This document shows positions 2,217 to 18,671 of a DNA stretch of 64,000 bases, one piece after another. Position 1 is the first letter of the stretch, and every line of letters begins with the position of its first letter. Position numbers and translations under genes: made by a program. The notes below the pieces were generated by a model. That model had not been told where the DNA came from. It did no database searches and was given only the letters and a program-made list of their open reading frames with translations. The stretch lies in NCBI GenBank assembly GCA_021777755.1, contig JAJYDE010000011.1, positions 1-64,000 of the forward strand, given 5' to 3'. This DNA is from Deltaproteobacteria bacterium. Its GTDB lineage: Bacteria; Desulfobacterota; Syntrophobacteria; Syntrophobacterales; Syntrophobacteraceae.

Positions 2217-2545
2217 CTTTTTGCCTCCGATGGGTGTTCTTGGATTTGATAGTCCTATTTCCTGTTTTCTGCACTATACAAGATACATGCCCGAAATAGG
2301 AAGGCAAAAGCAAAGGCAAAAGGGAAAAAGGGAAAGCCTTGCATCCCGGCTTGCGGCGCCTGTCTTTCATTGTCAAAATCCCGGCGGTTTTGCAATCGTG
2401 AAGTGGTCTGTCCACTGCATGGTTGACAGACGATTTCGTAAATTGAATTTCTTTTTTGCCGCATAGCCGCATATGCTTGTTTGCTCAATTTGTGAAAGCG
2501 GATAAATTGAGCTGTCAATTCGAACTTCGGGAGAACTCTGAGGCC
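2217..2545. other. Intergenic region between divergent genes
   Basis: About 330 bases between the ankyrin gene (minus) and the hybrid kinase (plus). It holds a purine-rich stretch at about 2297-2335 made of irregular GGCAAAA/GGGAAAA units and must contain both promoters, but no strong -35/-10 pair, sigma-54 site or palindrome was recognised. Confidence 0.5.
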
Positions 2546-4126
2546 ATGAACAATCACAAGGGCGTGAAGGTGCTTTTGATCGACGATGACCCGGGTATTC
2601 TCAAGGTGATGACTTTGGCGCTCGAAGACGCGGGGCACGAGGTCATTTCGGCGGGTGACGGGATCAGCGGGGTTGATTTGTGTGCCAGCGCCTCTCCCGA
2701 TATTGTGATAACCGATATCCGGATGCCCGGGATAAACGGCATGGAGGTGCTCAAAAGAGTCAAGCAGATGGACCCCGACAAGGAAGTGATCGTGGCCACG
2801 GCCGCCACCGATATGAATTATGCGGTGGAGGCCCTGCGACTTGACGCCTCGGATTTCATCTTGAAGCCGATAAGCGAACAGGCACTTTCGATCGCGATCA
2901 AGCGGGCGCGGGATCGATTCGCCACCCGAAGGGAGCTGAAGGATTACACCGCCCTTATCGAGGAGCGGTGGATGGATACAACCGAAGAGCTGGCCCGGAC
3001 CTTCCAGACTCAAAAGCTTCTGATCGAAAGCTCGATAGACGGAATCATCGCCTGCGACAAGTCGGGCAGGATCATCATTTTCAACAAGAGCATGGGAAAA
3101 ATGCTCGGTTACGCCCGAAAGGAGATGCTCGGGCAAAAGATGATCGACCGGGTGTTTTGCCCCGGCGAGGCCGAAAAGTTTAAAGACGCGCTCGCATCGG
3201 GAAAACATGGCGGCAAGGGCAGACTCTTTTTGCACGAATGCTTTTTTGAAAGCAGGGATGAAACGCGAATTCCGGTGCAGCTTTCGGCTGCTGAAATGGT
3301 CAGGGAAGACGAGCAGGTCGGGTTGGTTTGTTTTGTTCGCGACGAACGCGAGATCCGAAAACTGACGCAGGAAGTGGCCAACCAGGCCAGAATGCTTCAT
3401 CAGGACAAGATGATCTCGCTTGGCAAGCTTGCCGCCAGCGTGGTCCATGAAATCAACAATCCGTTGGCCGGCATTCTCAATTATGCGCGGCTGATGAGCA
3501 AGATACTTTCCCGCGGCGCACCCGGCGCGGAGTCCACTGAAAAGTTCAGCGGCTATCTGGCCCTCATGCAGAGCGAATTGGAACGTTGTGCAAAGATCGT
3601 GGCCAACCTGCTCGCCTTTTCGCGTAAAAGCAAACTGGAGTTCGGCCCGGTGGACCTAAACGAGCTGTTAAGAATCTGCATCAATTTGAGCGGACATAAA
3701 CTGGAGCTTCAAAACATCCGCGTCGATACCCGTCTTGCCCCCGATCTTCCCATGATTCAGGGGGATTTCAGTCAACTGCAGCAGTGCATGATAAACCTGA
3801 TTTTCAATGCGGTGGACGCCATACCCGAGGGGGGAACACTTCTTTTTACCTCCAATTTCGAGGCGGCAAGAAATCTTATCCGCATAACCGTGAAGGACTC
3901 CGGGTGCGGGATCTCCAGGCAGGATCTTCCCTATATTTTCGAACCTTTCTTTACCACCAAAACAGAAGGGAAGGGGGTGGGGCTGGGGCTTTCGACCACC
4001 TACGGCATTATCGACAGGCACAAGGGGACCATCCACGTCAACAGCGAGCCGGGCCGGGGTGCCGAATTCGTCATCGATCTTCCGGTGAGCCCGGCCAATC
4101 CCGCGGACTTAAGCCGAACTTCGTGA
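2546..4126 (+). CDS. Hybrid protein: receiver, PAS, histidine kinase
   Basis: A 526-residue cytoplasmic signalling protein. Residues 5-125 form a CheY-like receiver with the acidic pair D13/D14, phosphoacceptor D57, T85 and K107. Residues 155-280 form a PAS domain. The HisKA box has H301 (VVHEINNPLAG), followed by N, G1 and G2 boxes (NLIFNAVDAI, DSGCGIS, GVGLGLS). The chosen ATG has a GGGAG-type site upstream; the frame is open further up to a TTG at 2456, but those residues resemble no receiver start. The receiver-first order suggests an intermediate in a phosphorelay. There is no membrane segment. Its 3' end overlaps the convergent sigma-54 regulator gene by 56 bases. Confidence 0.88.
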   Translation: MNNHKGVKVLLIDDDPGILKVMTLALEDAGHEVISAGDGISGVDLCASASPDIVITDIRMPGINGMEVLKRVKQMDPDKEVIVATAATDMNYAVEALRLDASDFILKPISEQALSIAIKRARDRFATRRELKDYTALIEERWMDTTEELARTFQTQKLLIESSIDGIIACDKSGRIIIFNKSMGKMLGYARKEMLGQKMIDRVFCPGEAEKFKDALASGKHGGKGRLFLHECFFESRDETRIPVQLSAAEMVREDEQVGLVCFVRDEREIRKLTQEVANQARMLHQDKMISLGKLAASVVHEINNPLAGILNYARLMSKILSRGAPGAESTEKFSGYLALMQSELERCAKIVANLLAFSRKSKLEFGPVDLNELLRICINLSGHKLELQNIRVDTRLAPDLPMIQGDFSQLQQCMINLIFNAVDAIPEGGTLLFTSNFEAARNLIRITVKDSGCGISRQDLPYIFEPFFTTKTEGKGVGLGLSTTYGIIDRHKGTIHVNSEPGRGAEFVIDLPVSPANPADLSRTS

Positions 4127-5441
4127 TTTTGTGGTGTAGAGTGGCCCGATTCATCTCCAGCACCTTCGCCGCCTTCGAGATATTCCAGCGGCAGAGTTTC
4201 AAGATGTGTTCGATATGGTTTTTTTCGACCTCGCGCATGGTGAGCGCCATTTGCTTCTCTTCCGGAGATCTCGAAAGAAAGGCGAAGTCCTCCTTTTGCA
4301 GATATGTGCCCTTTGAGAGCACCACAGCCCGTTCAACGCTGTTTTCCAACTCCCGCACATTGCCGGGCCAGTCGTGGGATTGCAGAAAGAACATGGCGTC
4401 ATCCTTGAACCCCCTTACCCGCTTATTGGTCTCGCGCCGGAATTTTTGCAGAAAATGCTCGGCCAGTTGGGGTATGTCTTCCTTTCGTTTTCGTAAGGGC
4501 GGGACCTCGATTTCGATCACCTTCAGCCGGAAATAGAAGTCTTTGCGGAAACTCTCCCCGGACACTCTTTGGAAAAGGTCCTGGTGGGTGGCCGAAATAA
4601 GCCTGAAGTCCACGCTTAATTCCTTGTTGCCCCCCACCCGGTGGAAAATCTTTTCCTGGAGAACTCGGAGCAGATCGACCTGCATCTTGAGCGGTATCTC
4701 GCCCACCTCGTCGAGGAAAAGGGTGCCGCCCGCGGCCATCTCCAGGCGGCCTATCCGGGTGCGGTTGGCCCCGGTAAAAGACCCCGCTTCATGGCCGAAC
4801 AGTTCGCTTTCAAGAAGCGTGTCTGAAAAGGCCCCGCAATTTATTGCGATAAAAGGTCCTTGCCGGCGGTTGCCGCGGGCGTGGACGGCCTTGGCGACCA
4901 ATTCCTTTCCGGTTCCCGTTTCCCCCTGGAGCAAAATCGGCGAGTCAACCTTGGCAACGAGATCTATGAAGGAAAAAAGGCGCCTCATGCACTCCGAGGA
5001 GCCGATCATGTCATTGTAGCCCGTGGCCTCGCTTAACTGGTTTCGAAGGTAGATGTTTTCCTCGACCAGTTTTTTCTGGTTGAGGAGCTTTTCGACCATC
5101 AATTCCAGTTGCTCGGCTTGGAAGGGCTTCATCAAAAAATCGTCCGCCCCGTTTTTCATGGCCTCGATGGCGGTCTCGATCGATGCGTAGGCGGTTATCA
5201 TGACCACGAGGATGTGGGGGTGGGTGGTCTTGACGGTCTTAAGAGCTTCCAGGCCGCTCAAGTCCGGCATTCTCATGTCGAGGAAAATGAGATCGTAATG
5301 GTTGCGGGAAAGCATGTCGAGCGCCTGCCGGCCCCCCGGGGCCGCATCCACCCCATGCCCCGCCCGCCTCAGCCAGCCGACCAGCGACTCGCGGATAATC
5401 AATTCGTCATCGACAACCAGAATTCGAATCTTTTCGCTCAT
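4071..5441 (-). CDS. NtrC-family sigma-54-dependent response regulator
   Basis: A 456-residue three-domain activator. The receiver (1-125) has D11/D12, D55, T83 and K105. The AAA+ domain (about 145-385) has Walker A GETGTGKE (173-180), Walker B LFLDE (241-245) and the sigma-54 contact loop written GSFTGA (220-225) rather than the usual GAFTGA. The C-terminus has a Fis-type helix-turn-helix (ISKAAKVLEMNRATLHHKI). It starts 8 nt after the upstream kinase gene, so the two are a cognate pair in one operon. Likely target: the divergent sigma-54 promoter near 7314, through palindromes at 7023 and 7197 (inference). Confidence 0.93.
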   Translation of the reverse strand: MSEKIRILVVDDELIIRESLVGWLRRAGHGVDAAPGGRQALDMLSRNHYDLIFLDMRMPDLSGLEALKTVKTTHPHILVVMITAYASIETAIEAMKNGADDFLMKPFQAEQLELMVEKLLNQKKLVEENIYLRNQLSEATGYNDMIGSSECMRRLFSFIDLVAKVDSPILLQGETGTGKELVAKAVHARGNRRQGPFIAINCGAFSDTLLESELFGHEAGSFTGANRTRIGRLEMAAGGTLFLDEVGEIPLKMQVDLLRVLQEKIFHRVGGNKELSVDFRLISATHQDLFQRVSGESFRKDFYFRLKVIEIEVPPLRKRKEDIPQLAEHFLQKFRRETNKRVRGFKDDAMFFLQSHDWPGNVRELENSVERAVVLSKGTYLQKEDFAFLSRSPEEKQMALTMREVEKNHIEHILKLCRWNISKAAKVLEMNRATLHHKITKFGLSPRDWPGSPEDR

Positions 5442-5449
5442 CTTCCCTC

Positions 5450-6958
5450 TCAGCGATCGCCGGGCGCAACGGGAAACCTCAAGATGAAGCGCGACCCGGC
5501 CCCCTCTTCACTTTTGACGTACACCGCGCCGCCGTGCTCCTTGACTATGCCGTAGACAACCGAAAGGCCCAGCCCCACACCCTTGTCGTGGCTTTTGGTG
5601 GAAAAGAAGGGCTCGAAGATCATCGGGATGATTTTCTTGGGGATTCCGGTCCCGTTGTCGATGACCTCCACCCGGATTGTCGAGGGCGACCGGGGGTCCG
5701 GGGAGGTCCTGAGTACCAGTTCGCCTCCCTCGGCCATGGCGTCGGCCGCATTGAAAACAAGGTTCAAAAGGCATTGCTCTATCTGGCTCTGATCTCCGGT
5801 TATAAGCGGGAGGTCCTGCGCCAGTTCGGTCCTGGCCTTTATCGACTGGGAATCGAGGCGAAAACGAACGAAATCGAGCACTCTTTGAATCAGCCCGTTT
5901 ATCTGGAACTCGCTTCGCGCTCCTTTGGCCTGGCGAGAAAAATGGAGCAGATCCCTTACGATGCCGCTGCAACGGGCGGATTCGGAATCGATCAGGTCAA
6001 GGTAATAGATGAATCTTTCTTTCGAGGCCTCATCGGCATCGCCCGATTCGAGTTCCCGGCGCACAAGCCGGGCCAGAGCATTGATGCCCGTAAGCGGATT
6101 GTTTATCTCGTGGACCGCGCTGGCCGCCATCTGGCCAAGAGATATCATCTTCTCTTCGTAGACAAGCCTCATGAGGTCTTTTTTTAGGGCGGAGACCTTC
6201 TGCTCCACCTTCTGTTGCATTTCGTCCGTGATATCGCGAAATATTTCAACGACCAGCTCTATCCGACCGCCGGCGGTCTTGAGGGGGACCGCGGTGATTT
6301 CGTGGTAGCGGTCCGAACCCGAGCCCGCGATCCCTTCCAAAATCGCATGAGCGACCTCCCCGGTCTCAAGGCAGCGCGCAACCGGGCAATAGAACCCTTC
6401 GGCGTGGCACCGGGCGGGAGAGCCGTAGGCCACCTCATGGCAATATTTGCCCACCATGTCGTCTTTGCTCATGCGCACGGCGTTGAGAAAGGCCTCGTTG
6501 GCGTCGTGGACCTTGAGGTCGGGCTGCATGACCAGCACCCAGTCGCGAAGGCCCAGGAAAAGACCCTCCATAATGCCTTCGACGAGGTTGATCTGGCGCT
6601 CGGCGAACTGGTATTCCTCGCTCAGGCAAAGAACATCTCCGAAAATCCGGGATATCGCCGATTCCAGCACCCGCACACTGGCCGGCTTGCGCCTAAGAAA
6701 ATCCTCCAGCAATTCCGCCTTGCCGGTCAGCTCTATGACCAGATCGAGGTCTTTGATCTTGTAGAAGTCTTCGTAATCGGTTGTGACAAAAATCTTCTTC
6801 TCACGGGCAAGACGGATACCGGGAGCTTCGAGATCGGGATCGGCGACCGCCACGATTTCAGCCCCCAGCTTGGGGAAGCGCAGTGCGTCGAACATCTCCA
6901 GAAACGCCCGGCAGCGTTTGCTCCCTCCGATTATCCCGATTTTCATCGGCGTTTCCAT
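5450..6958 (-). CDS. Histidine kinase with N-terminal Rossmann-like domain and PAS
   Basis: A 502-residue soluble sensor kinase. Residues 5-110 resemble the dinucleotide-binding domain of GFO/IDH/MocA or homoserine-dehydrogenase-type enzymes: glycine-rich turn GIIGGS, strand VAVADPD ending in D40 (an acidic residue there usually favours NAD over NADP), and LVIELTGKAE. A PAS domain (about 125-245) holds four cysteines, C173, C184, C191 and C196. The HisKA box has H283 (AVHEINNPL), followed by N and G boxes ending near GVGLGLS. The ATG at 6958 is preferred because the predicted promoter and palindrome at 7023-7060 lie upstream of it; the frame is open to 7060. Ligand binding by the N-terminal domain is inferred. 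Confidence 0.87.
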   Translation of the reverse strand: METPMKIGIIGGSKRCRAFLEMFDALRFPKLGAEIVAVADPDLEAPGIRLAREKKIFVTTDYEDFYKIKDLDLVIELTGKAELLEDFLRRKPASVRVLESAISRIFGDVLCLSEEYQFAERQINLVEGIMEGLFLGLRDWVLVMQPDLKVHDANEAFLNAVRMSKDDMVGKYCHEVAYGSPARCHAEGFYCPVARCLETGEVAHAILEGIAGSGSDRYHEITAVPLKTAGGRIELVVEIFRDITDEMQQKVEQKVSALKKDLMRLVYEEKMISLGQMAASAVHEINNPLTGINALARLVRRELESGDADEASKERFIYYLDLIDSESARCSGIVRDLLHFSRQAKGARSEFQINGLIQRVLDFVRFRLDSQSIKARTELAQDLPLITGDQSQIEQCLLNLVFNAADAMAEGGELVLRTSPDPRSPSTIRVEVIDNGTGIPKKIIPMIFEPFFSTKSHDKGVGLGLSVVYGIVKEHGGAVYVKSEEGAGSRFILRFPVAPGDR

Positions 6959-7022: not shown

Positions 7023-7039
7023 TGTATAAGATTTATACA
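7023..7039. promoter_or_regulatory. Palindromic operator, copy 1
   Basis: TGTATAA-GAT-TTATACA, perfect 7-bp arms with a 3-bp centre. The same arms and spacing recur at 7200-7216. It overlaps the predicted -10 of the kinase/regulator pair, which fits autoregulation by the NtrC-type protein. Assignment of the binding protein is inference. Confidence 0.65.
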
Positions 7040-7060
7040 CAAAATTATTCGGCCCGACAA
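7032..7060 (-). promoter_or_regulatory. Predicted sigma-70 promoter of the kinase/regulator pair
   Basis: On the minus strand, TTGTCG (7060-7055) and TATAAA (7037-7032) are separated by 17 bases. The -10 element lies inside the palindrome at 7023-7039, so occupancy of that site would be expected to block this promoter. Transcription would start near 7025, about 67 nt before the chosen ATG. Confidence 0.5.
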
Positions 7061-7196
7061 CGACGCCCGATCAGTTCCTTTTGAACGCGGTTTTCAGCCT
7101 CGGACCCGGGTAGACACCCCCGGGGCGCACCGGGGCGAAGTCGGGAGCCGAAATGGCGGCCCTCTGGATTTGGCCTGCACAGGTGGGGGACTCTTG

Positions 7197-7219
7197 TGTT
7201 GTATAAAATTTATACAACA
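7197..7219. promoter_or_regulatory. Palindromic operator, copy 2 (candidate upstream activator site)
   Basis: A perfect inverted repeat with 11-bp arms around one central base; its core is TGTATAA-AAT-TTATACA, identical in arms and spacing to the site at 7023. It lies about 95 bp upstream of the sigma-54 promoter at 7314, a usual distance for an NtrC-family enhancer site. Confidence 0.7.
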
Positions 7220-7313
7220 TGTTCAAATTTAAACGCACCCGCCCCGACAAACCGGGAAGCCAACAGCGCTCTTCCAACGCGGGATGGCCACCGGGACTGG
7301 ATTTTGGAACATA

Positions 7314-7329
7314 TGGCAGGCATCTTGCG
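7314..7329 (+). promoter_or_regulatory. Sigma-54 (RpoN) promoter for the Hdr operon
   Basis: TGGCAGG-CATC-TTGCG matches the -24/-12 consensus TGGCACG-N4-TTGCW at 10 of 12 specified positions, and the invariant GG and GC (7315-7316, 7327-7328) are exactly 10 bases apart. Transcription would start near 7340, about 175 nt before the first gene. No competing sigma-70 promoter was recognised. Confidence 0.72.
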
Positions 7330-7514
7330 AATGGAGCCCGATGCACGGCGAAGCGGTTCTTTTCGTCTTTGCGCCACCTTCCTGCGCCGTTTCGATAAAG
7401 CGCATGGAAACAGTATAAGGAGTGCCCCTGTGTTAGGGGTCGTTTTCAAGAGCTGGAAGCCGGGAAAGCTCAAAGAGAGCCCCGCTTTCTCAGCAGCGCC
7501 TTCGAGGTTGCCCA

Positions 7515-10500
7515 ATGCGTCCAAGGATCGGGTTTTATATCTGCCATTGTGGAACGAACATAGCCGGAAAAGTCGCGGTGGGCGAAGTTCGCGACTTTGT
7601 GGGGGAGCATTCGAAAAACGTGGTCGTTGCCCGCGACTACAAATTCATGTGCTCGGATCCCGGCCAGGAGATGATCCAGAAAGACATAAGAGAACTGGGT
7701 CTAAACCGGGTGGTTGTGGCTTCGTGTTCTCCGAGGCTTCATGAGAAGACTTTCCAAAACGCCTGCGGGCGGGCGGGGCTGAATCCCTACTTTTTCCAGA
7801 TGGCCTGCGTTCGGGAACATTGCTCCTGGGTCACCTCGGATCCGGGCGAAGCCACCGCCAAGGCTAAAAGCCTGGCTTCGGCCGCGGTCAGCCGGGTCAA
7901 TTTTCACGAGACCCTTTTCAGCCGGGAAGTCTCCGTAAACCCCGACGTACTGGTCGTCGGGGCGGGAATCTCGGGCATCCAGGCCTCCCTGGACATTGCG
8001 AAATCGGGCTGCAAGGTCCACCTCGTGGAAAGGGAGCCTTCGATTGGCGGGCACATGGTCCAGTTCGACAAGACCTTCCCGACCCTTGACTGTGCGGCGT
8101 GCATTTCGACGCCCAAGACCGTCGCGGTGGCCCAGAGCCCCGGCATAGATCTTTTGAGCTACAGCGAAGTGACGGAAGTAAAGGGATATGTTGGAAACTT
8201 CACCGTCAAGGTGCGCCGCAAGCCTCGCTATGTAATGGAAGATAAATGCACGGGGTGCGGCCTGTGTGCCGAGCACTGCCCGGTTTCAGTTCCCAACGAG
8301 TTCGACGAAAAGCTGAGTGAGCGAAAAGCGGTCTACCGGTTTTTTCCCCAGGCGGTGCCCATCACCTTCGCGATCGAAAAGAAGGACCCCGCGCCCTGCA
8401 AGATGAGTTGCCCGGCCGGGGTTAATATTCAGGGCTATACGCAACTGATAGGGCTTGGCAAATACAGGGAAGCCGTTGAACTGATCATGGAGAAACTGCC
8501 TTTGCCGGGTGTTTTGGGCAGGGTTTGTCCGCATGTTTGCGAATCGAACTGCCGCAGAACGCAAATCGATTCGCCGATTTCGATCCGGGAGCTCAAACGC
8601 TTTGCGGCCGACCGGGTGATGGCCGAAGAGATCGGTGTTCCGCGGATCGAAGACAGGCCCGAGCGGGTGGCGGTGATCGGTTCGGGGCCGGCCGGGCTTA
8701 CGGCCGGCTATTATCTGAGGCTCAAAGGCTACGGGGTCACAATTTTCGAGGCCCTGAGCGCCCCCGGGGGAATGCTCAAAGTCGGAATCCCCGACTACCG
8801 GCTTCCTCCCGAGGTTTTGGACCGGGAGATAAATAATATCCTGCGGTTGGGGATAAGCCTTGAAACCGGAAAACGGCTGGGGGTGGATTTCACCCTCGAC
8901 GACCTTAGGCAACGGGGATTCAAGGCCATTTTCATAGGCATCGGGGCGCACAAGCCGCTAAAGATGAACATCGGCGGCGAGCGGGATTTGAGCGGAGTTA
9001 TCCAGGCCACCGATATTTTGCGGCAAACAAGCCTCGGGGCCCGCAAGGCTCCCGGGGAGCGGGTGCTTATCCTGGGCGGGGGCAACGTGGCCGTGGATGC
9101 GGCCAGAACGGCGCTGCGCCTTGGCAGCAAAGAGGTGATGATCGTCTACCGCAGGACCCGCGAGGAGATGCCCGCGTACGCGGAAGAAATCGAGGATGCG
9201 CTCCTTGAAGGGATAAAGATCAGCTATCTTACCGCGCCCGTGGCCGTGGAGGGTTCGGATGGAAAAGTCACCGGGCTCCATTGCATAAAGACCGCGCCCG
9301 GCCCGGCCGACGAGTCCGGCCGCAGGCGACCAATCGTGCGGGAGGGAAGCGACTTTGTAATCCCGTGCGACGCGATCATTTTCGCCATCGGGCAGGAGCC
9401 CGACACGGACTGCTGTATCGCTTCGGGGCTCGAAGTCGGCAGGCGCGGCCGCATTACGGCTTCATCGCGCTGCGGGCAAACCTCCTCGCCTGATGTTTTC
9501 GCCGCCGGAGACGCGGTGATCGGGCCTGCGACCGTGATCGAAGCGGTCGGCGCGGCCCGTGAAGCCGCCGAGGCGATCGACCGGTATTTGCGCGGTGAAC
9601 CGGTCGAATCGACGGAGTCCGAAAGGACGAGTGAAAACGGGGGAAACTGGCGCGAAATCCCCAAGAAGGCTCCGCGCCTTCCCAGAGCTTCGGTCAACCG
9701 GATAGATCTCGATGCGGCAAAGACTTCGTTTGCCGAAGTAAGCCTTGGCATCTCGGAGGATGCGGCCAGGACCGAGTCGGCCAAGTGCCTCAATTGCGGG
9801 GTTTGCTCCGAATGCATGGAGTGCGTACGGGCCTGCGAGCGATCCGCCATAGATCATTCCATGAAGGCCGAGGAAATCGAACTGCGGGTGGGCTCGATCA
9901 TCCTTGCCACCGGCTTTGACACCATGGACGCTTCGGTCTTTACAAATTACGGGTACGGTCGTTTTGAAAACGTCTATACCGGGCTCGAATTTGAAAGACT
10001 CAACAACGCGGTGGGGCCCACCGGCGGGCAAATCGTCATGAAAAACGGCAAGAAGCCCGAAAGTGTGGCCATAATTCACTGCGTCGGGAGCCGCGACGCG
10101 GGTCATAACGCCTACTGTTCGCGGGTCTGCTGCATGTACGCTCTGAAATACGGCCACCTCATAAAGGAAAAGGCGGGGCACGACACCCGGGTTCACAACT
10201 TCTACATCGACATGAGGTGTTACGGAAAGGGCTACGAGGAGTTCTACAGGCGTCTTCAGGAGGAGGGGGTCAACTTCGTTCGGGGTAGACCCGCCGAGAT
10301 CCGGGAGGAAGTGTCGGCCTCGGGTGAAAAGAAACTGATCGTCATAGGCGAGGATACGCTCCTCGGGCGCCTGGTACGGCTTCCGGTGGACATGGTGGTC
10401 CTTTGCACCGCGATCGAGGCCCGCGGCGACGCTTCCGAGGTGGCCCGCATTTTTGGAATAAGCCAGGGCGGAGACGGCTTTTTCCTGGAGGAGCACCCGA

Positions 10501-10889
10501 AGCTGGGACCGGTTTCCACGCCCACCGACGGGATTTTTCTGGCCGGTGTCTGCCAGGGGCCAAAAGACATCCCCGACGCCGTGTCTCATGCCTCGGGGGC
10601 CGCGGCCCAGGCCCTTGCCCTTTCGACAAGGGGCAAAGTGGAGGTCTCACCGGTCACCTCGCTGATAGATCCCGACATATGCATCGGGTGCCAAATCTGT
10701 ATCAAACTCTGCCCCTATTCGGCCATCGAGTTCAACGGGCGAAAGGGCATTTCGGAGGTAAACGAGGCGGTCTGCAAGGGCTGCGGAAGTTGCGCGGGTT
10801 TTTGCCCGAGCGGGGCTGCGCGTGTAAAGCATTTTGCCCCGAAGCAGGTGTTTGCGGAAATAGAGGGAATTCTGGACGAAGTGGTTTAG
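7515..10889 (+). CDS. hdrA: HdrA-like flavoprotein with inserted GltD/NfnB-type domain
   Basis: A 1124-residue predicted electron-transfer flavoprotein. Residues 1-140 are the HdrA N-terminal domain (YICHCGTNI; CSPRLHEKTF). The first FAD half begins at GAGISG (149), with the HdrA signature TLDCAAC, then a ferredoxin cluster (CTGCGLCAEHCP). From about C295 to 695 an entire GltD/NfnB-like module is inserted: CKMSCP and RVCPHVCESNC Fe-S motifs, GSGPAG and GGGNVA nucleotide sites, and a FAAGD strand. HdrA then resumes with a cysteine cluster (from C758), the second FAD half, and two C-terminal 4Fe-4S motifs (C1056, C1087). GltD modules usually bind FAD and NAD(P)H, so this subunit probably links NAD(P)H to the Hdr complex. 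Large HdrA-GltD fusions in sulfate reducers have been called HdrL. First gene of the operon; weak AGG ribosome site. Confidence 0.9.
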   Translation: MRPRIGFYICHCGTNIAGKVAVGEVRDFVGEHSKNVVVARDYKFMCSDPGQEMIQKDIRELGLNRVVVASCSPRLHEKTFQNACGRAGLNPYFFQMACVREHCSWVTSDPGEATAKAKSLASAAVSRVNFHETLFSREVSVNPDVLVVGAGISGIQASLDIAKSGCKVHLVEREPSIGGHMVQFDKTFPTLDCAACISTPKTVAVAQSPGIDLLSYSEVTEVKGYVGNFTVKVRRKPRYVMEDKCTGCGLCAEHCPVSVPNEFDEKLSERKAVYRFFPQAVPITFAIEKKDPAPCKMSCPAGVNIQGYTQLIGLGKYREAVELIMEKLPLPGVLGRVCPHVCESNCRRTQIDSPISIRELKRFAADRVMAEEIGVPRIEDRPERVAVIGSGPAGLTAGYYLRLKGYGVTIFEALSAPGGMLKVGIPDYRLPPEVLDREINNILRLGISLETGKRLGVDFTLDDLRQRGFKAIFIGIGAHKPLKMNIGGERDLSGVIQATDILRQTSLGARKAPGERVLILGGGNVAVDAARTALRLGSKEVMIVYRRTREEMPAYAEEIEDALLEGIKISYLTAPVAVEGSDGKVTGLHCIKTAPGPADESGRRRPIVREGSDFVIPCDAIIFAIGQEPDTDCCIASGLEVGRRGRITASSRCGQTSSPDVFAAGDAVIGPATVIEAVGAAREAAEAIDRYLRGEPVESTESERTSENGGNWREIPKKAPRLPRASVNRIDLDAAKTSFAEVSLGISEDAARTESAKCLNCGVCSECMECVRACERSAIDHSMKAEEIELRVGSIILATGFDTMDASVFTNYGYGRFENVYTGLEFERLNNAVGPTGGQIVMKNGKKPESVAIIHCVGSRDAGHNAYCSRVCCMYALKYGHLIKEKAGHDTRVHNFYIDMRCYGKGYEEFYRRLQEEGVNFVRGRPAEIREEVSASGEKKLIVIGEDTLLGRLVRLPVDMVVLCTAIEARGDASEVARIFGISQGGDGFFLEEHPKLGPVSTPTDGIFLAGVCQGPKDIPDAVSHASGAAAQALALSTRGKVEVSPVTSLIDPDICIGCQICIKLCPYSAIEFNGRKGISEVNEAVCKGCGSCAGFCPSGAARVKHFAPKQVFAEIEGILDEVV

Positions 10890-10910
10890 TCCGTTTCATT
10901 GGAGGAACAA

Positions 10911-11333
10911 ATGGGCGATTACGAGCCTACAATCATCGCTTTTGTCTGCAACTGGTGCACATACACGGCCGCGGATCTCGCCGGGACCTCGCGGCTTGTT
11001 CAGCCTGCGAACGTGCGCATGGTGCGCATGATGTGCACCGGGATGGTCGATCCCAAATACATTATCAAGGCGCTTCTGGAGGGGGCCGACGCGGTTTTGG
11101 TGAGCGGCTGCCATCCGGGCGACTGCCACTACATAAACGGCAATCTCAAGGCCAGGCGCAGGATGAAGCTTTTAAAGGAAATCCTTCCGAAGTTCGGCTT
11201 TGACGAACGAAGGCTCAAGATGACCTGGATCGGTGCCAGCGAGGGAATCGATTTTGCGGAGACGGTAAGACAGATGACGGCCGAAGTAAAAGCGCTCGGC
11301 CCAAACGATTTGCGCACCCGGATGGTGTTGTAG
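10911..11333 (+). CDS. mvhD: MvhD-like 2Fe-2S electron-transfer subunit
   Basis: 140 residues from the ATG, which follows a strong GGAGG site; an in-frame TTG lies 12 bases upstream. The MvhD cysteines are visible: C13 and C16 (FVCNWC), C42 (MMCTG), C67 and C72 (SGCHPGDC). In methanogen Mvh-Hdr complexes this subunit carries a 2Fe-2S cluster between the electron-input module and HdrA. It lies 21 nt after the HdrA-GltD gene and 28 nt before the FrhB-like gene, consistent with one complex. Confidence 0.92.
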   Translation: MGDYEPTIIAFVCNWCTYTAADLAGTSRLVQPANVRMVRMMCTGMVDPKYIIKALLEGADAVLVSGCHPGDCHYINGNLKARRRMKLLKEILPKFGFDERRLKMTWIGASEGIDFAETVRQMTAEVKALGPNDLRTRMVL

Positions 11334-11361: not shown

Positions 11362-12513
11362 ATGTCCAAGATAGGGAAAATAACCGTAAAGGACCGTGAT
11401 ACGGTCTCTTCGCTGCAGGATTTCCTCAAACTGCTGCTGCAAAAGGGAGCTGTCGAGGCGGTGCTGGTCCAGCAGCGGCTTGCGATCAATAACGCTGTCA
11501 TGCCCGCGCTGATTACCGATATCGAAAACCTTGGCCAGGCCGATCCCCTTGCCCCGGCTTTTGCTCTAAACGGCGCCAGGATGCTCTCCCGGCTTACCCG
11601 AAAGCCCCTGGATGCGCCCATCGCCGCGGTAATGCGCCCCTGCGAAATAAGGGCTTTTGTCGAACTTGTGAAATTGAAGCAGGGCAGCGTCGACAATGTC
11701 ATTTTGATCAGCGCGGACTGCCTCGGGGCCTATCCCAATAACGACTACGCCAAGGTTGCGGGCATGGGGGCGGGCGCCGAATCGACGCTTTCCTTCTATC
11801 GCAACATCATTTCGGGGAAAGGAACGGCTGCGCAGGACGCGGACATCTCCCCGGCCTGCAAATCCTGCGAGCATCCCGCGGCGGTCAATGCCGATATAAC
11901 GATCGGGCTTCTGGGAACGAACATGGAGGAAAATCTGCTCCTTATCGCCAATACGCCAAAGGGGGAAAAGCTTTTGGCCGATCTGGGGGTAAAGGTTGAA
12001 GACGAACCGCTCGATGGCAGGAAAAGCGCTCTGGACGCCCTGGTGGGCGAGCGGATCGAGTATCGGGACCGGATGTTTGCGCGCACCTCCGAGGCGGTCT
12101 CAAGCGTTGAAAAGCTCATGGGTTATCTGCGCGCATGCGTCAACTGCCACAACTGCCGGGTGGCCTGTCCGGTGTGCTATTGCCGGGAGTGTGTCTTTAC
12201 TACCGACGTCTTCGACCATGAGCCGGCGCAATATCTGCGTTGGGCCAAACGCCGAGGCGCTCTCAAGATGCCGACCGATACCGTTTTCTTTCACCTTACG
12301 CGCCTGGCCCACATGAGTGCGGCCTGCATCGGCTGCGGGCAGTGTTCGAACGCCTGCCCCAACGACGTGCCGGTGATGGAGCTGTTTCGCACCGTGGCCC
12401 ACGGAGTCCAGGGGGCCTTCGGCTATGGCGCGGGTGCAAGTTTGGAAGACGAGCCGCCCCTGTCCGTATTCCACGAGAAGGAATTCTGCGAGGTGACGGG
12501 TGGACACGATTAG
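11362..12513 (+). CDS. FrhB/FdhB-like iron-sulfur flavoprotein
   Basis: A 383-residue homologue of the coenzyme F420 hydrogenase / formate dehydrogenase beta family. The FrhB-type centre is seen in VMRPCEIRAFVELVKL and SADCLGAYPNNDY, with an extra cysteine pair (CKSCEH). Two C-terminal 4Fe-4S motifs follow: C259 (CVNCHNCRVACP) and C322 (CIGCGQCSNACP), plus CYCREC. Family members bind FAD and pass electrons between a nicotinamide, F420 or ferredoxin partner and Fe-S clusters. Which substrate is used here cannot be read from the sequence. Cotranscribed with the Hdr genes. Confidence 0.85.
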   Translation: MSKIGKITVKDRDTVSSLQDFLKLLLQKGAVEAVLVQQRLAINNAVMPALITDIENLGQADPLAPAFALNGARMLSRLTRKPLDAPIAAVMRPCEIRAFVELVKLKQGSVDNVILISADCLGAYPNNDYAKVAGMGAGAESTLSFYRNIISGKGTAAQDADISPACKSCEHPAAVNADITIGLLGTNMEENLLLIANTPKGEKLLADLGVKVEDEPLDGRKSALDALVGERIEYRDRMFARTSEAVSSVEKLMGYLRACVNCHNCRVACPVCYCRECVFTTDVFDHEPAQYLRWAKRRGALKMPTDTVFFHLTRLAHMSAACIGCGQCSNACPNDVPVMELFRTVAHGVQGAFGYGAGASLEDEPPLSVFHEKEFCEVTGGHD

Positions 12514-12570: not shown

Positions 12571-15500
12571 ATGGAGACAAAAACCGGGCGAGCCCTGGTG
12601 ATCGGGGCCGGGATCAGTGGAATCCGGTCGGCCCTGGACCTGGCGGAAATGAATTACCGAGTTTATTTGATAGATAAATCACCGCACATCGGGGGGATCC
12701 TCAGCCAACTCGACTATCAATTCCCGACCGATCACTGCGGCATGTGCAAGATGCTCCCCACGATCGGGCGCGATGCTTCGTCCCAGTTCTGCCTGAGAAA
12801 GGGGCTGTTTCACGAAAATATCGAAGTGCTGCCCGGAACCGAGATGATCGCGCTCGAGGGCGAGCCCGGAAATTTCAAGGCCACCCTGGACTCGGCGCCC
12901 ACCTTCATCGATCCGGAAAAGTGCATCGGCTGCGGGCTGTGCTCGGCGCCTTGCCCTGTCAGCTTGCCCGATACATTCAACGGGGGGCTTGCGAAGCGAA
13001 AAGCGGTCCATCTTCCGGTCCCGCACAATATTCCAAACCGCTATACGATCGATATGGCGGCATGCACCCGGTGCGGGGAATGCGAAAAGGTGTGCCCGAC
13101 GGGGGCGATCGACCTGAAAACCGAGGCCAGGCGCGCATTTAAAATCCTGGTGGTCGATGATGAACTGGTGGTACGCGATTCCTTGAAGGAATGGCTCGTG
13201 GTCGAAGGCTTCAGCGTCGATATGGCCGATTCGGGGGCCGAAGCAATAGATCTTGTCTCCGCAAATGAATACGGCCTCGTGCTTCTCGACGTCAAGATGC
13301 CCGGAATGGACGGGGTCGAGGCCCTCCAGATCATAAGGGAGATGAAACCCGATTTGCCCGTTTTGATGATGACCGCCTACGCCACGGTGGAAACCGCGGT
13401 CCAGGCGATGAAAATCGGGGCCGCCGAATATCTCATGAAGCCCTTCGACATCGAGGCCCTCAACGCCAAGGTCGTTCAGCAGTATGAAAGCACGGTGGCC
13501 GTAAAGGGCCGCGTGATCGAGGTCGGAGCGGTCATCATGGCTACGGGTTCGGATTTTTGCGATCCGGCGAAAATCCCCGGCGCCTTCGGCTACGATTATC
13601 CAAACGTTGTGACCGGCTTGCAGTTCGAACGGATTGTGAGCGGTTCGGGGCCCGGTGCGGGAAAACTCGTTCGCCCCTCGGATGGAAAGCCCGCCAGAAA
13701 AATAGCCTTCCTCCAGTGCGTCGGATCGAGGGATCTCAAGCAAAAGGCGGATTACTGCTCTTCGGTGTGCTGCATGTTTTCCATAAAGGAAGCCCTTTTG
13801 GCCAAAGCCAAATCGGGGGGCGAAGCCGATACGGCCATCTTTTACATGGACATGCGAACCTTCGGCAAAGATTTCCAGCGCTACCGCGATTCGGCGGAAA
13901 AAGAATCGGGGGTTCGCTTTATAAGAAGCCGCATTCATACGGTCGAACCCGATATCGATGGAAGGCTGAGTCTGCATTACGTTGACGGCGAAGGGGCCAT
14001 GGTCGAGGAAATCTTCGATCTGGTGGTCCTGGCCGCCGGGCAAAGAGCCTCCAAAGGGGCGAGAGAGCTTGCCCGATCGGCCGGAGTGGAGCTCAATCCC
14101 GCCGGTTTTTGCCGCACAGACGAACTCTTTCAAAGTAAAAGCAGCCGGGAGGGCGTTTTTGCGGGGGGGGCCATTTCGGGACTGAAAGACATCTCCGAAT
14201 CGGTTATTCAGGCCGGTTCGGCCTCCCTTGAAGCCTCGCGGCTCATTCGCTCGAAGGGCGGAACCTCGCGGCCGCCCGAGCCGAAGGGCGCCCTTTTCAA
14301 GGATTCATCCAGGGATTTGCCCCGGCTCGCCGTGGCTCTTTGCGCCTGCGCAAGCTCGCTTGCCGGCGGCCTGGATCTGGAAGCCCTGGGCGCGGCCCTT
14401 TCCCGGTGGGACCCTTCGATCCGCGTGTTGCAAACCGAGCGGGTCTGTACGCTTGCCGGCAAAAAATCGCTTTTGGACAGCTTGCGGGACACCGGCTGCA
14501 ACATGATTTCCATCGGGGCCTGCATGCCATGCCTCTACGGGAAGATGCTCCTCGATCTGGCAAGAGAAACGGGGCTTTCTCCCGGACTCATGGATGTGGT
14601 CGACATATACACTCCGGCCTTCGGGCGCGGGGGGCAGGCCGAGGCCCGGGTCCAAACGGCGATGAAAATGTCGATTGAAAGGCTCAAAGGCGCCGATCCG
14701 GCCCCCGGCCGGTCATTTAACATCATTCGAAAAGCGCTCGTGATCGGAGGCGGGATTTCCGGTTTGACCGCGGCGCTGGCCATAGCCGACCACGGCTTCA
14801 AGGTCGATTTGGTTGAAAAGGAAGCCGATCCGGGCGGGCTTGTCCGCGCAATAGGCAGCACCATCGAAGGGGTTGCCACTTCCGGGGTGCTTGGCAGGCT
14901 GGTCTCCGGGGTCCGGGCCAATTCGAATATTTCCCTCCACACGGGAGCCGAGGTTGTCGGCTCGAAGGCTTATCAAGGCCTGAGTTTTCTTACCACGATC
15001 AAGACCGGCGACGGGGAGACAAAACAGATCGATCACGGGGTGACGATTTTGGCCACAGGGGGCAAAGAAGCCGCGACGCGCGAATACGGTTTCGGCCAAA
15101 GCGGGTCGGTGGTGACCCAGCACGAGCTGGAGGGGCGCCTTGGAAACGGGGGTGCCGTCGGCCTCGGGGTTGTCGCCATGATCCAGTGCGTCGGTTCGCG
15201 CGAGGAAGGCAGAAATTATTGCAGCCGGATCTGCTGTCAGACGGCGCTGAAAAACGCCTTGCGCATCAAGAAGGATAACCCGGAGGCCAAAGTCTACATT
15301 TTCTACCGCGACATCATGACCTATGGTTTTCTCGACGCCTACTACACGAAGGCCAGGCAGGAGGGAGTCATTTTTATCCGGTATTCGCGGGACGCAAAAC
15401 CCGAGGTGACTATCGGGGAGGGCGGGAAGGTCACAATTGTCACCCGCGATCCGATTCTGGGTAGAGATATCGCCATAGAACCCGATCTGCTGGTCCTCGG

Positions 15501-15978
15501 TACGGGGCTTGCTCCAAACGATTTGGGGCGATTGGGGGAATATTTCGGCTTCGAGGTAAACGAAGACGGGTTTTTCCGGGAGGCCGAATACAAATGGCAG
15601 CCCGTTGACTCGAAAAAACGCGGGGTATTCGCCTGTGGCGTGGCGCACTCCCCCCGCTCGATTTCCGAGTCGATTGCAATGGCTCAGGCCGCGGCCCAAC
15701 GAGCGCTCGTAATGCTCAACCGGGATGTGGTCGAGGCCGGCAGCGTGGTCGCCAGGGTGCGCCACGGCCTCTGTTCTCTTTGCGAAAGATGCATTTCGGC
15801 CTGTCCTTACGGCGCGCGGAGTCGGAACGAAGAAAACGATCGGATCGAAATCGACGAACTCGCTTGCCAGGGATGCGGCGCCTGTGCGGCTGTTTGTCCC
15901 AACTCCGCCTCGGTTGTGCGGGGATTTGGCGACCGGCAGGTCATGGCCATGGTCGATGCGGCCCTGGAACTTATTTGA
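12571..15978 (+). CDS. hdrA: Tandem HdrA-like protein with embedded CheY-like receiver
   Basis: 1135 residues. It lacks the usual HdrA N-terminal domain and opens with the FAD turn VIGAGISG, then PTDHCGMCKMLP, a ferredoxin cluster at C118 and another at C165 (CTRCGECEKVCP). Residues about 189-305 are a complete response-regulator receiver: D196/D197, phosphoacceptor D240 (VLLDVKMPG), T268 and K290 (LMKPF). HdrA resumes at EVGAVIMATG. A degenerate HdrA-N-like stretch (about 585-700, CACASSL, GACMPC) precedes a second FAD module (GGGISG from 726) and two C-terminal 4Fe-4S motifs (from C1068). The frame is uninterrupted, so the receiver is part of the protein. Role: predicted flavin and Fe-S core of the HdrABC complex; control by phosphorylation is inferred. 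GC content and codon use look continuous with the flanks. Confidence 0.92.
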   Translation: METKTGRALVIGAGISGIRSALDLAEMNYRVYLIDKSPHIGGILSQLDYQFPTDHCGMCKMLPTIGRDASSQFCLRKGLFHENIEVLPGTEMIALEGEPGNFKATLDSAPTFIDPEKCIGCGLCSAPCPVSLPDTFNGGLAKRKAVHLPVPHNIPNRYTIDMAACTRCGECEKVCPTGAIDLKTEARRAFKILVVDDELVVRDSLKEWLVVEGFSVDMADSGAEAIDLVSANEYGLVLLDVKMPGMDGVEALQIIREMKPDLPVLMMTAYATVETAVQAMKIGAAEYLMKPFDIEALNAKVVQQYESTVAVKGRVIEVGAVIMATGSDFCDPAKIPGAFGYDYPNVVTGLQFERIVSGSGPGAGKLVRPSDGKPARKIAFLQCVGSRDLKQKADYCSSVCCMFSIKEALLAKAKSGGEADTAIFYMDMRTFGKDFQRYRDSAEKESGVRFIRSRIHTVEPDIDGRLSLHYVDGEGAMVEEIFDLVVLAAGQRASKGARELARSAGVELNPAGFCRTDELFQSKSSREGVFAGGAISGLKDISESVIQAGSASLEASRLIRSKGGTSRPPEPKGALFKDSSRDLPRLAVALCACASSLAGGLDLEALGAALSRWDPSIRVLQTERVCTLAGKKSLLDSLRDTGCNMISIGACMPCLYGKMLLDLARETGLSPGLMDVVDIYTPAFGRGGQAEARVQTAMKMSIERLKGADPAPGRSFNIIRKALVIGGGISGLTAALAIADHGFKVDLVEKEADPGGLVRAIGSTIEGVATSGVLGRLVSGVRANSNISLHTGAEVVGSKAYQGLSFLTTIKTGDGETKQIDHGVTILATGGKEAATREYGFGQSGSVVTQHELEGRLGNGGAVGLGVVAMIQCVGSREEGRNYCSRICCQTALKNALRIKKDNPEAKVYIFYRDIMTYGFLDAYYTKARQEGVIFIRYSRDAKPEVTIGEGGKVTIVTRDPILGRDIAIEPDLLVLGTGLAPNDLGRLGEYFGFEVNEDGFFREAEYKWQPVDSKKRGVFACGVAHSPRSISESIAMAQAAAQRALVMLNRDVVEAGSVVARVRHGLCSLCERCISACPYGARSRNEENDRIEIDELACQGCGACAAVCPNSASVVRGFGDRQVMAMVDAALELI

Positions 15979-15990
15979 AAGGCGAATCCA

Positions 15991-16560
15991 ATGGCTCAAA
16001 ATCAAGCCTCGGCAGGTTCAACCATTCCCGATCGGGGTATGTTTGCGCAAATTTCCAAAAACCTAAGGGCGTGCATGCAGTGCGGGACCTGCACGGGTTC
16101 GTGCGGCAGCGCCGCGAGAATGGAGCATACGCCCCGGCAGCTCTGGCGGATGGTGCAGGCGGGTATGAAGGACGAAATATTTAAGAGCCGCACCTTCTGG
16201 CTCTGTTCGAGCTGCTATTACTGCACCCTGCGGTGCCCTCGGGGGTTGCCGCTTACCGACACGATGGCGGCGCTCAAAAGGGTGGCTGTGGCCGAAGGCT
16301 ATACAACCGACCGCAAAAGTGCGCCTTTCTACAAGGCCTTTCTCGATAGCGTGCGCAAATACGGCCGGGTGAGGGAATCCGAAATGATGGCCAGGTACTT
16401 CCTCGCGGTTAAAAACCCCGCGGTTCCGTTGAGTTTCGTTCCGCTGGGCATGAAGCTCATGGCCAGGGGGAAAATGGATCTTCATATGCCGGGCTTCGGC
16501 GGGCGGGGAAAACTCGACAGGCTCTATCGAAAAGTCATGGAACTGGAGGCTGCGAAGTGA
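15991..16560 (+). CDS. hdrC: HdrC-like iron-sulfur subunit
   Basis: 189 residues with two 4Fe-4S motifs, C28/C31/C34/C38 (CMQCGTCTGSC) and C72/C75/C78/C82 (CSSCYYCTLRC), as in the HdrC ferredoxin subunit of heterodisulfide reductase. It relays electrons between HdrA and the HdrB catalytic site. It starts 12 nt after the tandem HdrA gene, and its stop overlaps the GTG of hdrB. No membrane segments, so this is the soluble HdrABC type rather than HdrDE. Confidence 0.92.
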   Translation: MAQNQASAGSTIPDRGMFAQISKNLRACMQCGTCTGSCGSAARMEHTPRQLWRMVQAGMKDEIFKSRTFWLCSSCYYCTLRCPRGLPLTDTMAALKRVAVAEGYTTDRKSAPFYKAFLDSVRKYGRVRESEMMARYFLAVKNPAVPLSFVPLGMKLMARGKMDLHMPGFGGRGKLDRLYRKVMELEAAK

Positions 16561-17456
16561 GGTACTTTTACTACCCTGGATGTTCGCTCCAACACTCGGC
16601 AAAAGAGTACGACATTTCGACGCGGGCTCTCATGCGGCTTCTCGGCCATGAACTGATGGAGGTCGACGATTGGACGTGCTGCGGGGCGAGCGCGGCGGAC
16701 ACTTCGAGCAGGCTGCTCTCGATCGCCTTGCCCGCCCGTAACCTCGCTTTGGCGCAAAAGTCGGGTGTTTCGGCCGATATTCTGGTCCCCTGCAGCTCCT
16801 GTTATCTCAACTTGCGAAGAGCCGAGGATGCGATGAGCCGTGAGAGTGGAACGGCCGATCTCGTAAACCGGGCGCTTTCCGAGGAGAGTCTTTCCTATTC
16901 CGGAGGCGCGAGGGTAAGACACCTGCTGGACGTTTTGGCAAACGACATGGGCGCGGGCCCGATAGCGGCCGGTCTAAGGCACAGTCTTTCGGGCCTTTCC
17001 GTTGTCCCCTACTATGGATGCCAGGCCCTGCGCCCTTTTGCCGATTTCGACGACCCCGAGCGGCCCCGTTCCATGGATGCGCTCATCGCCGCCACCGGGG
17101 CGAGCGTATTCGATTGGAACATGGGAGCGAAATGTTGCGGCGCGGGCCTTATGACCACCAAAAAGGAGCTGTGCCTGGACCTGGTGGCCGATATTCTCGA
17201 TGACGCAAAAGGCGCGGACTGTATCGCCACGGTCTGCCCGATGTGCCAAATGAACCTGGAGACCAGCCAGAAAAGGATTTCCAAGATGCGGGGAAGGCCC
17301 CTGGAGATATCGATTGTCTACCTGCCGCAGCTCCTGGGCTTCAGCCTCGGGCTGCCCGAGGCGGGGCTGCGATTGGGCTTGAACCTGGCCTTGACGCGCT
17401 CCTTCACGGGGCGTCTGGCTGCCATGTCAAAACAGATTGCTGCGCCGGGTCGCTAG
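16557..17456 (+). CDS. hdrB: HdrB-like catalytic subunit (two CCG domains)
   Basis: 299 residues with GTG start in a GTGA overlap with hdrC. Two CCG domains: C9 with C41/C42 and C79/C82 (CCGASA, PCSSC), and C155 with C193/C194 and C227/C230 (CCGAGL, VCPMC). In methanogens this pattern holds two noncubane 4Fe-4S clusters that reduce CoM-S-S-CoB. In bacteria the acceptor is different and unknown; a thiol-disulfide or similar acceptor is usual speculation. Last enzyme gene before the kinase at 17559. Confidence 0.92.
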   Translation: MRYFYYPGCSLQHSAKEYDISTRALMRLLGHELMEVDDWTCCGASAADTSSRLLSIALPARNLALAQKSGVSADILVPCSSCYLNLRRAEDAMSRESGTADLVNRALSEESLSYSGGARVRHLLDVLANDMGAGPIAAGLRHSLSGLSVVPYYGCQALRPFADFDDPERPRSMDALIAATGASVFDWNMGAKCCGAGLMTTKKELCLDLVADILDDAKGADCIATVCPMCQMNLETSQKRISKMRGRPLEISIVYLPQLLGFSLGLPEAGLRLGLNLALTRSFTGRLAAMSKQIAAPGR

Positions 17457-17558
17457 GGACGGCGCCCGCAGAGGCTGGAAGCATGGTTTGCCGAGCCGGG
17501 TGGCGAGGCGAACCTTATCTTTCAGGCCGAGGGTTCCGGCGGTGCGATGGAGACAAGC

Positions 17559-18671
17559 ATGTGCGCGGCCGTGCGAAAAAGGCTCGAAGAACAGGTGGGA
17601 AGAAGCGAGAAAAAGTACCGGGAGCTTTTTAACAACATCCCCAATCCCGCCTTCGTCCTTGACCGGGACCTAAAAATCCTCGACTGCAACGACATGGTTT
17701 TCGGCGTATACGGCTTCCGAAAAGAAGACCTTTTGCGGCAGCCCTTTACAGATCTTTTCGAGCCCGAAGAAAGCCGCGATTTTGCAAAAGAGATAAGACT
17801 CGCGGGAACCATGAAGGAGGTGCGCCACCTCACCCGTTACGGCCCGGTCATATACGTAAACATCCGGGTATGCCGTTACAGATACGCCTCCGATGCGGCC
17901 TTCCTGGTCACTACGAGCGATATTACCAAAAGACTGCTGGTCGAACAACAGCTCGTTCAGGCAGGCAAGATGGCCACCCTTGGCGAGATGGCCACCGCCA
18001 TCGCCCACGAACTCAATCAGCCTCTTTCGGTAATGAAGACGGCGAGCAGCTTCATAGTAAACAAGATAAGAAAAGGCGAAAAGATAAGGGAAGAAACTCT
18101 TGAAACGATGGCCGGGGAAATCGACAGCCACGTGGACAGGGCTTCAGCCATTGTCTATCACCTGCTGGAATTCGGACGCAAATACCCGGTCGAAAGAGAA
18201 CCGGTCGATGTCAATGAGGCCCTCCGAAGGTCTCTTGTCCTTTTCATGCAGCAGCTAAGGCATAGAGGCATCGAGGTGGAAAAGGATTTCGAAGCCGATC
18301 TGCCAACGGTTTCAGCCGTTGGCAACAGGCTGGAGCAGGTCTTCATAAATCTTCTCGTAAACGCCCGGGACGCTATCGAGGACAAATTCGAAAAAGCGGT
18401 CCACTCCCCGGAGAAGAAAATCTTTTTAAGAACGCGCTTTTGGGAAGGAAAAGTTCGCATCGAGGTGGGAGATACCGGGATTGGAATCCCCAAGCCGCTT
18501 CTTGAAAAGATCTTCGAGCCGTTCTTTACCACAAAACGGGTTGGAAAGGGCACCGGCCTTGGTCTTTCCATAAGTTGCGGGATCGTCCAGGACTACGATG
18601 GAACCCTCGAGGTCGCGACCCGCGAAAATGAGGGATCAACTTTTATCATAACCTTTCCGGCTTCGAGTTGA
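17559..18671 (+). CDS. PAS-domain histidine kinase at the end of the Hdr operon
   Basis: About 370 residues. A short coiled N-terminus leads to a PAS domain ([21 protein letters not shown]), then a HisKA box ([10 protein letters not shown]), an N box ([12 protein letters not shown]) and G boxes (DTGIGIP, GTGLGLS). No membrane segment and no receiver. The ATG at 17559 has GGAG six bases upstream; another in-frame ATG is at 17547. It lies 102 nt after hdrB on the same strand, so it is probably the last gene of the operon. Candidate partners are the sigma-54 regulator and the receiver inside the tandem HdrA (inference). Confidence 0.88.

Follow-up and report, generated by a model that had tools for sequence, protein, structure and literature searches.

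In NtrC-type regulation, a -24/-12 promoter has tandem dyads about 100–150 bp ahead of it, and one more site overlaps the promoter from which the regulator genes are transcribed; NtrC acts at glnA and at its own promoter. In Desulfovibrio, the motifs of several sigma-54 activators are composed of TGT and ACA half sites that are 9, 11 or 12 bp apart, and the regulons are typically small and local, with one to four operons (PMC4641369). Moreover, DVU2394, a response regulator of the sulfate reducer Desulfovibrio vulgaris Hildenborough, binds upstream of DVU2405-2397, an operon that includes heterodisulfide reductase (hdr) genes (PMC3333781). HdrL loci have been described in Desulfobacterium autotrophicum HRM2, in which a HdrA/glutamate-synthase-type fusion (HdrL) is followed by mvhD; one locus possesses tandem hdrL-hdrA together with hdrB/hdrC, and the locus map also indicates regulator genes (PMC2702500).

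Here, we analysed a 64-kb window (the whole stretch of 64,000 nucleotides under study) from an uncultured member of the Syntrophobacteraceae, in which a histidine kinase-regulator operon and an hdr operon diverge from a common intergenic region. The architecture is that of NtrC, AtoC and ZraR, namely a receiver-AAA+-Fis HTH regulator that would control a sigma-54 promoter. However, the regulator falls well below the NCBIfam equivalogue cut-offs of the three families (427 bits against 714 for AtoC, 419 against 760 for ZraR and 405 against 559 for NtrC), and it has a site sequence, a sensor and a target operon that differ from theirs. As with DVU2394, a response regulator is paired with the upstream region of an Hdr-gene operon, although DVU2394 binds a direct repeat rather than a dyad and its operon holds an alcohol dehydrogenase besides the hdr genes (PMC3333781). 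Among the Desulfovibrio motifs, TGT-N11-ACA has the exact spacing of the sites A and B described below; the core TGTATAA-N3-TTATACA is absent from the text of that source, where the motif logos are in figures (PMC4641369). As for the HRM2 HdrL loci, neither a regulatory-DNA analysis nor a receiver-bearing HdrA was found in the accessible portion of their description (PMC2702500). The regulatory logic is textbook NtrC-type; the operator sequence is its own. The locus would link a hitherto unassigned two-component system of uncultured Syntrophobacteraceae, which has orthologues across the order, to one specific Hdr-type operon, the energy metabolism of which is probably electron-bifurcating.

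Palindromic sites and predicted promoters of the intergenic region

The features of the intergenic region and of the divergent operon are as follows:

4071..5441, minus strand: NtrC-type response regulator with receiver, AAA+ and Fis-type HTH domains, proposed to bind A, B and B'
5453..6949 (start about 6946-6958), minus strand: soluble histidine kinase with an N-terminal NAD-binding-type Rossmann domain, PAS, HisKA and HATPase
7023..7039, no strand: site A, second perfect-core palindrome TGTATAAGATTTATACA, which adjoins the kinase gene; proposed autoregulatory operator
7034..7062, minus strand: possible sigma-70-type promoter of the kinase-regulator operon, TTGTCG-17-TATAAA, with its -10 inside site A
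7200..7216 (core; full 23-bp palindrome 7197-7219), no strand: site B, proposed strong upstream activating site, conserved in 6 species
7220..7235, no strand: site B', weaker tandem site TGTTCAAATTTAAACG (TGTTCAAATNTNNACA in relatives)
7314..7328, plus strand: sigma-54 -24/-12 promoter TGGCAGG-N4-TTGC of the hdr operon, predicted start about 7340

The sequence at 7197-7219 is a perfect palindrome, TGTTGTATAAA-A-TTTATACAACA, with 11-bp arms around 1 central base, and it is the longest perfect short-spacer palindrome of the window. It lies 95 bp upstream of the sigma-54-type promoter, as an earlier note on this DNA had described. The genome search proposed in that note, for TGTATAA-N3-TTATACA, returned two places in the whole genome (4.2 Mb, 103 contigs), 7023-7039 and 7200-7216, both in the kinase/hdr intergenic region; the core of the first, site A, reads TGTATAA-GAT-TTATACA. 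When one mismatch was allowed, no further site was found in this genome beyond the intergenic region, and a 19-mer search with up to three mismatches returned the same two places only. Moreover, a site with 13/14 matches appeared in none of 2000 shuffled versions of the intergenic region. The combination of palindrome and promoter had been considered improbable by chance, and this holds for the palindrome, given its two genomic copies and the outcome of the shuffles, whereas the sigma-54 match taken alone is unexceptional. Site A and the weaker tandem site B' had both been overlooked in the earlier reading. B' follows directly 3' of B in 6/6 species, and its centre is about 20 bp, or two helical turns, from that of B.

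The promoter at 7314-7328, TGGCAGGCATCTTGC (TGGCAGG-CATC-TTGC), has its GG and GC ten bases apart, as first reported. The match is nevertheless weaker than its original wording: it departs at two positions from TGGCAYRN4TTGCW, several sites of equal quality occur elsewhere in the window, and its P against shuffled sequence is about 0.04 for the intergenic region. At the orthologous place in 8 relatives, we found TGGCA-type -24/-12 elements with 0-1 mismatch, each with P of 0.008 or lower against shuffles. It is only because of these near-consensus orthologues that the promoter is convincing, as the match of the window would be insufficient alone. The genome encodes RpoN (one PF04552 match, E 1.6e-64), and site B is about 130-200 bp from the predicted start in the genomes that carry it, which is a normal distance between an upstream activating site and a start.

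The divergent neighbour had been taken for the sigma-54 activator itself. In fact, the gene directly opposite encodes the histidine kinase, and the activator is the second gene of that operon (4071-5441). Its PF00072, PF00158 (Sigma54_activat) and PF02954 domains all score above cut-off, and its GAFTGA-like loop reads GSFTGA, a variant listed as function-preserving in PMC4641369. A scan of relatives from the genus and the family gave no sigma-54 promoter that faces the kinase. A sigma-70-type promoter, TTG(T/C)C-17-TATAAA, can be read at the same spacing in 4/6 species; the automatic promoter scan did not flag the element at 7034-7062. The position of its -10 within site A suggests, with moderate confidence, that this promoter is subject to autorepression and that A is a repressor site.

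Conservation of the sites and of their spacing

Orthologues of the kinase share 81-86% identity in five congeners, 68% in one, and 42-59% in the family, order and class; among named records, the close ones belong to Syntrophobacteraceae and other deltaproteobacterial MAGs. A and B both retain 13 or 14 of 14 core matches in the genome of the window and in five close congeners. In addition, G006 has a 12/14 site; the sole candidate in G015 is a weaker site that lies over 500 bp away from the kinase gene. When five genomes were aligned, intergenic 17-mers had a mean pairwise identity of 0.38, against 0.94 for A, 0.89 for B and 0.79 for B'. The most conserved 17-mer windows all fall within the A, B and B' islands, and the remaining intergenic DNA is scrambled. 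Loss of the palindrome where the genes are retained had been named as evidence against a regulatory role; in the genus, A, B, B' and the promoter are all conserved along with the genes.

The sites are also restricted to this locus. With one mismatch allowed, 13 of the 14 distinct sites detected in the six carrier genomes are located inside the kinase/hdr intergenic region (one extra match, a duplicate due to contig overlap, is left out of the count). There were none, at the same tolerance, in four congeners that have only distant kinase homologues, and the exact TGTATAA-N3-TTATACA pattern was found in none of the 48 relatives from other genera that were searched.

Two near-identical sites flank a single intergenic region in 6/6 species, and sigma-54 activators act at a distance; A and B might therefore form one long-range looped element, in which A would be an additional enhancer and not an autorepression site. 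However, the A-B distance ranges from 147 bp (G001) to 221 bp, shows no helical phasing, and is lengthened to 1499 bp by an insertion in G007, a natural test which indicates that the spacing is not critical. We consider the looped arrangement rather improbable, and a looping unit with fixed spacing is made unlikely by the variable distance and by the roughly 1.3 kb inserted in one species. In that species (locus L040 of G007), the insertion between kinase and hdrL is accompanied by an extra A-like site, TGTATAATATTTACACA.

The sites go with the regulator rather than with the metabolic operon

A matrix built from the genus sites A and B only was applied, at 30 other loci, to the 300 bp that precede the kinase gene. 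In 13 of them (G006, G012, G020, G025, G026, G027, G028, G029, G031, G033, G036, G037 and G038), all in the family and order, a site was found 58-170 bp upstream of the kinase with P of 0.03 or lower against shuffled sequence. Such sites, which are weaker than those of the genus but occupy the same place, are thus present in most of the orthologous kinase loci of the family and order. It should be noted that single P values near 0.03 are weak when 30 tests are made; eight of the 13 reach 0.01 or lower, several of these eight being from closely related genomes. The matrix gave no significant site in the 300 bp upstream of the kinase in G015, nor in G030, G032, G034 and G035, which carry order-level orthologues, and none at class-level homologues or kinase paralogues.

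The orthologous hdrL operons of G019, G020 and G044 do not adjoin the kinase-regulator pair; no 12/14 motif is present in them, nor any sigma-54 site that is within one mismatch (G002, which has no kinase, was left out of this comparison, its contig beginning inside hdrL). The kinase loci of G020 and G025, in turn, retain weak motif matches. Since these hdr operons, separated from the kinase, have no motif and these kinase loci have one, the sites track the regulator. Within the genus, its recognition-helix region hardly varies (MNRATLHHKI or MNRVTLHHKI), and outside the genus it reads INRTTLHNKI; as judged from these sequences, its drift runs in step with that of the sites.

Overall, the sites are retained where the regulator is encoded and are restricted to such loci, and a site that is found at a single locus argues for a local regulator. 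As the genome encodes about 32 sigma-54 activators, the assignment of the operator rests on locality and co-segregation. Another factor encoded elsewhere, for example a redox repressor of the Rex, Crp/Fnr or TetR type, could also bind the palindromes and act on both divergent promoters, the regulator then binding other DNA. Many dimeric repressors typically have AT-rich perfect dyads as their sites, and site A seems to share bases with a -10 element. A global factor, however, should have sites elsewhere, and only the kinase/hdr locus carries them in six genomes; the sites track the kinase-regulator pair and not the metabolic operon, and among the neighbouring genes that were examined, no product other than the response regulator was recognised as DNA-binding. 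We therefore regard such a factor as a distinctly unlikely explanation. A chance AT-rich dyad or a stray repeat without regulatory role is rejected, for although short AT-rich palindromes do occur in bacterial genomes, this one has just two copies, both at the locus, is conserved in six species amid scrambled flanks and was matched in no shuffle.

The palindrome is very probably the cognate site of the regulator, as the earlier note had predicted, being conserved in the genus, confined to the locus and absent where the kinase is absent. Comparative evidence supports this operator reading with high confidence, and the sequence is short and specific enough for direct tests.

Proposed mechanism of regulation

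With good, if not complete, confidence, we propose that the palindromes are dedicated operators of the 4071-5441 regulator, which would serve both activation and autorepression. The kinase, which has an N-terminal NAD-binding-type domain and a PAS domain, would phosphorylate the NtrC-type regulator, and dimers of the phosphorylated form would bind to B and B' (7200-7235), the tandem pair that lies some 130 bp before the start. The bound regulator would form an active AAA+ ring and open the RpoN-polymerase at 7314-7328, so that transcription of hdrL-mvhD-frhB-hdrA(REC)-hdrC-hdrB-kinase may follow. At site A, which overlaps the probable -10 of the kinase-regulator operon, the regulator would limit its own synthesis.

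The region behind the sigma-54 promoter comprises:

7380..7450, plus strand: degenerate remnant of a small Cys-motif gene (VNFKLCDRDYDCSGCHFDKAM), which is present at the same place in relatives
7515..10889, plus strand: hdrL-like gene, HdrA with an inserted GltD/NAD(P)-type flavoprotein module (glutamate-synthase-type)
10899..11333, plus strand: mvhD / FlpD
11362..12513, plus strand: FrhB/FdhB-like iron-sulfur protein
12571..15978, plus strand: HdrA-type protein with an embedded response-regulator receiver domain
15991..16560, plus strand: HdrC-like iron-sulfur protein with 4Fe-4S dicluster domains, named from operon order
16557..17456, plus strand: HdrB-like protein (CCG domain)
17547..18671, plus strand: PAS histidine kinase at the operon end

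A further gene at 2456-4126 encodes a receiver-PAS-histidine kinase hybrid. It is convergent with the response regulator gene and is conserved beside it in the genus and in G012/G015. This hybrid kinase is a possible second input to the 4071-5441 regulator.

The sensor kinase and its candidate signal

Orthologues of the soluble Rossmann-PAS kinase (5453-6949) are present throughout the order and class. The first 90-120 residues have no Pfam assignment at the cut-offs and resemble NAD-binding Rossmann domains. Among the orthologues, matches to the Pfam families NAD_binding_3 (best 3.5e-6) and GFO_IDH_MocA (to 3e-4) were found, the copy of the window being below the curated cut-off, and the N-terminal profile matches acetaldehyde dehydrogenase (PDB 1nvm, E 1e-4). 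The structural model, confident in residues 1-90 only and too poor to use in its PAS part, resembles Gfo/Idh-type enzymes and homoserine dehydrogenase with VIA Z of 10-11.7 over about 110 residues, mostly at 2.2-3 Å. The glycine motif reads GGGxRC in most orthologues and GGSKRC in the window, the classic form being GxGxxG. The N-terminus is thus similar to NAD-binding oxidoreductase domains in both fold and profile.

That the kinase senses NAD(H) is a reasonable guess from this predicted fold, and not a result. The wider proposal, which we put forward as speculation with a modest chance of being right, is that the kinase gauges the cytoplasmic NAD(H) pool and sets the synthesis of the HdrL/HdrA complex, and that the same kinase or the one at the operon end phosphorylates the HdrA receiver. 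If true, one signalling circuit would govern transcription as well as enzyme activity, for an electron-transfer complex (HdrL/HdrA) that itself uses pyridine nucleotide. Moreover, if the NAD-binding-type domain is a sensor, it would become testable how these anaerobes adjust Hdr-complex expression to how oxidised or reduced their NAD pool is. In the open-access literature, we found nothing relevant on Rossmann-domain kinases associated with Hdr genes.

The hdr operon and its lost first gene

The HdrA-type protein encoded at 12571-15978 (flavin/iron-sulfur) carries its receiver insert at residues 192-301 (PF00072, 1.8e-31), and the fusion is conserved together with its flanks in about 22 relatives from two families. 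Given this receiver and the PAS kinase that closes the operon, control of the Hdr enzyme by phosphorylation is possible. A search of the open-access literature for an HdrA with a receiver domain returned nothing relevant.

In relatives, the first gene behind the promoter encodes a small Cys-motif protein, of which no other copy was found in the genome of the window. As this gene is reduced to the remnant at about 7380-7450, transcription from the promoter would now pass through a leader of about 175 nt ahead of hdrL. Elsewhere in the order, the same Cys motif heads a GcvH-domain protein.
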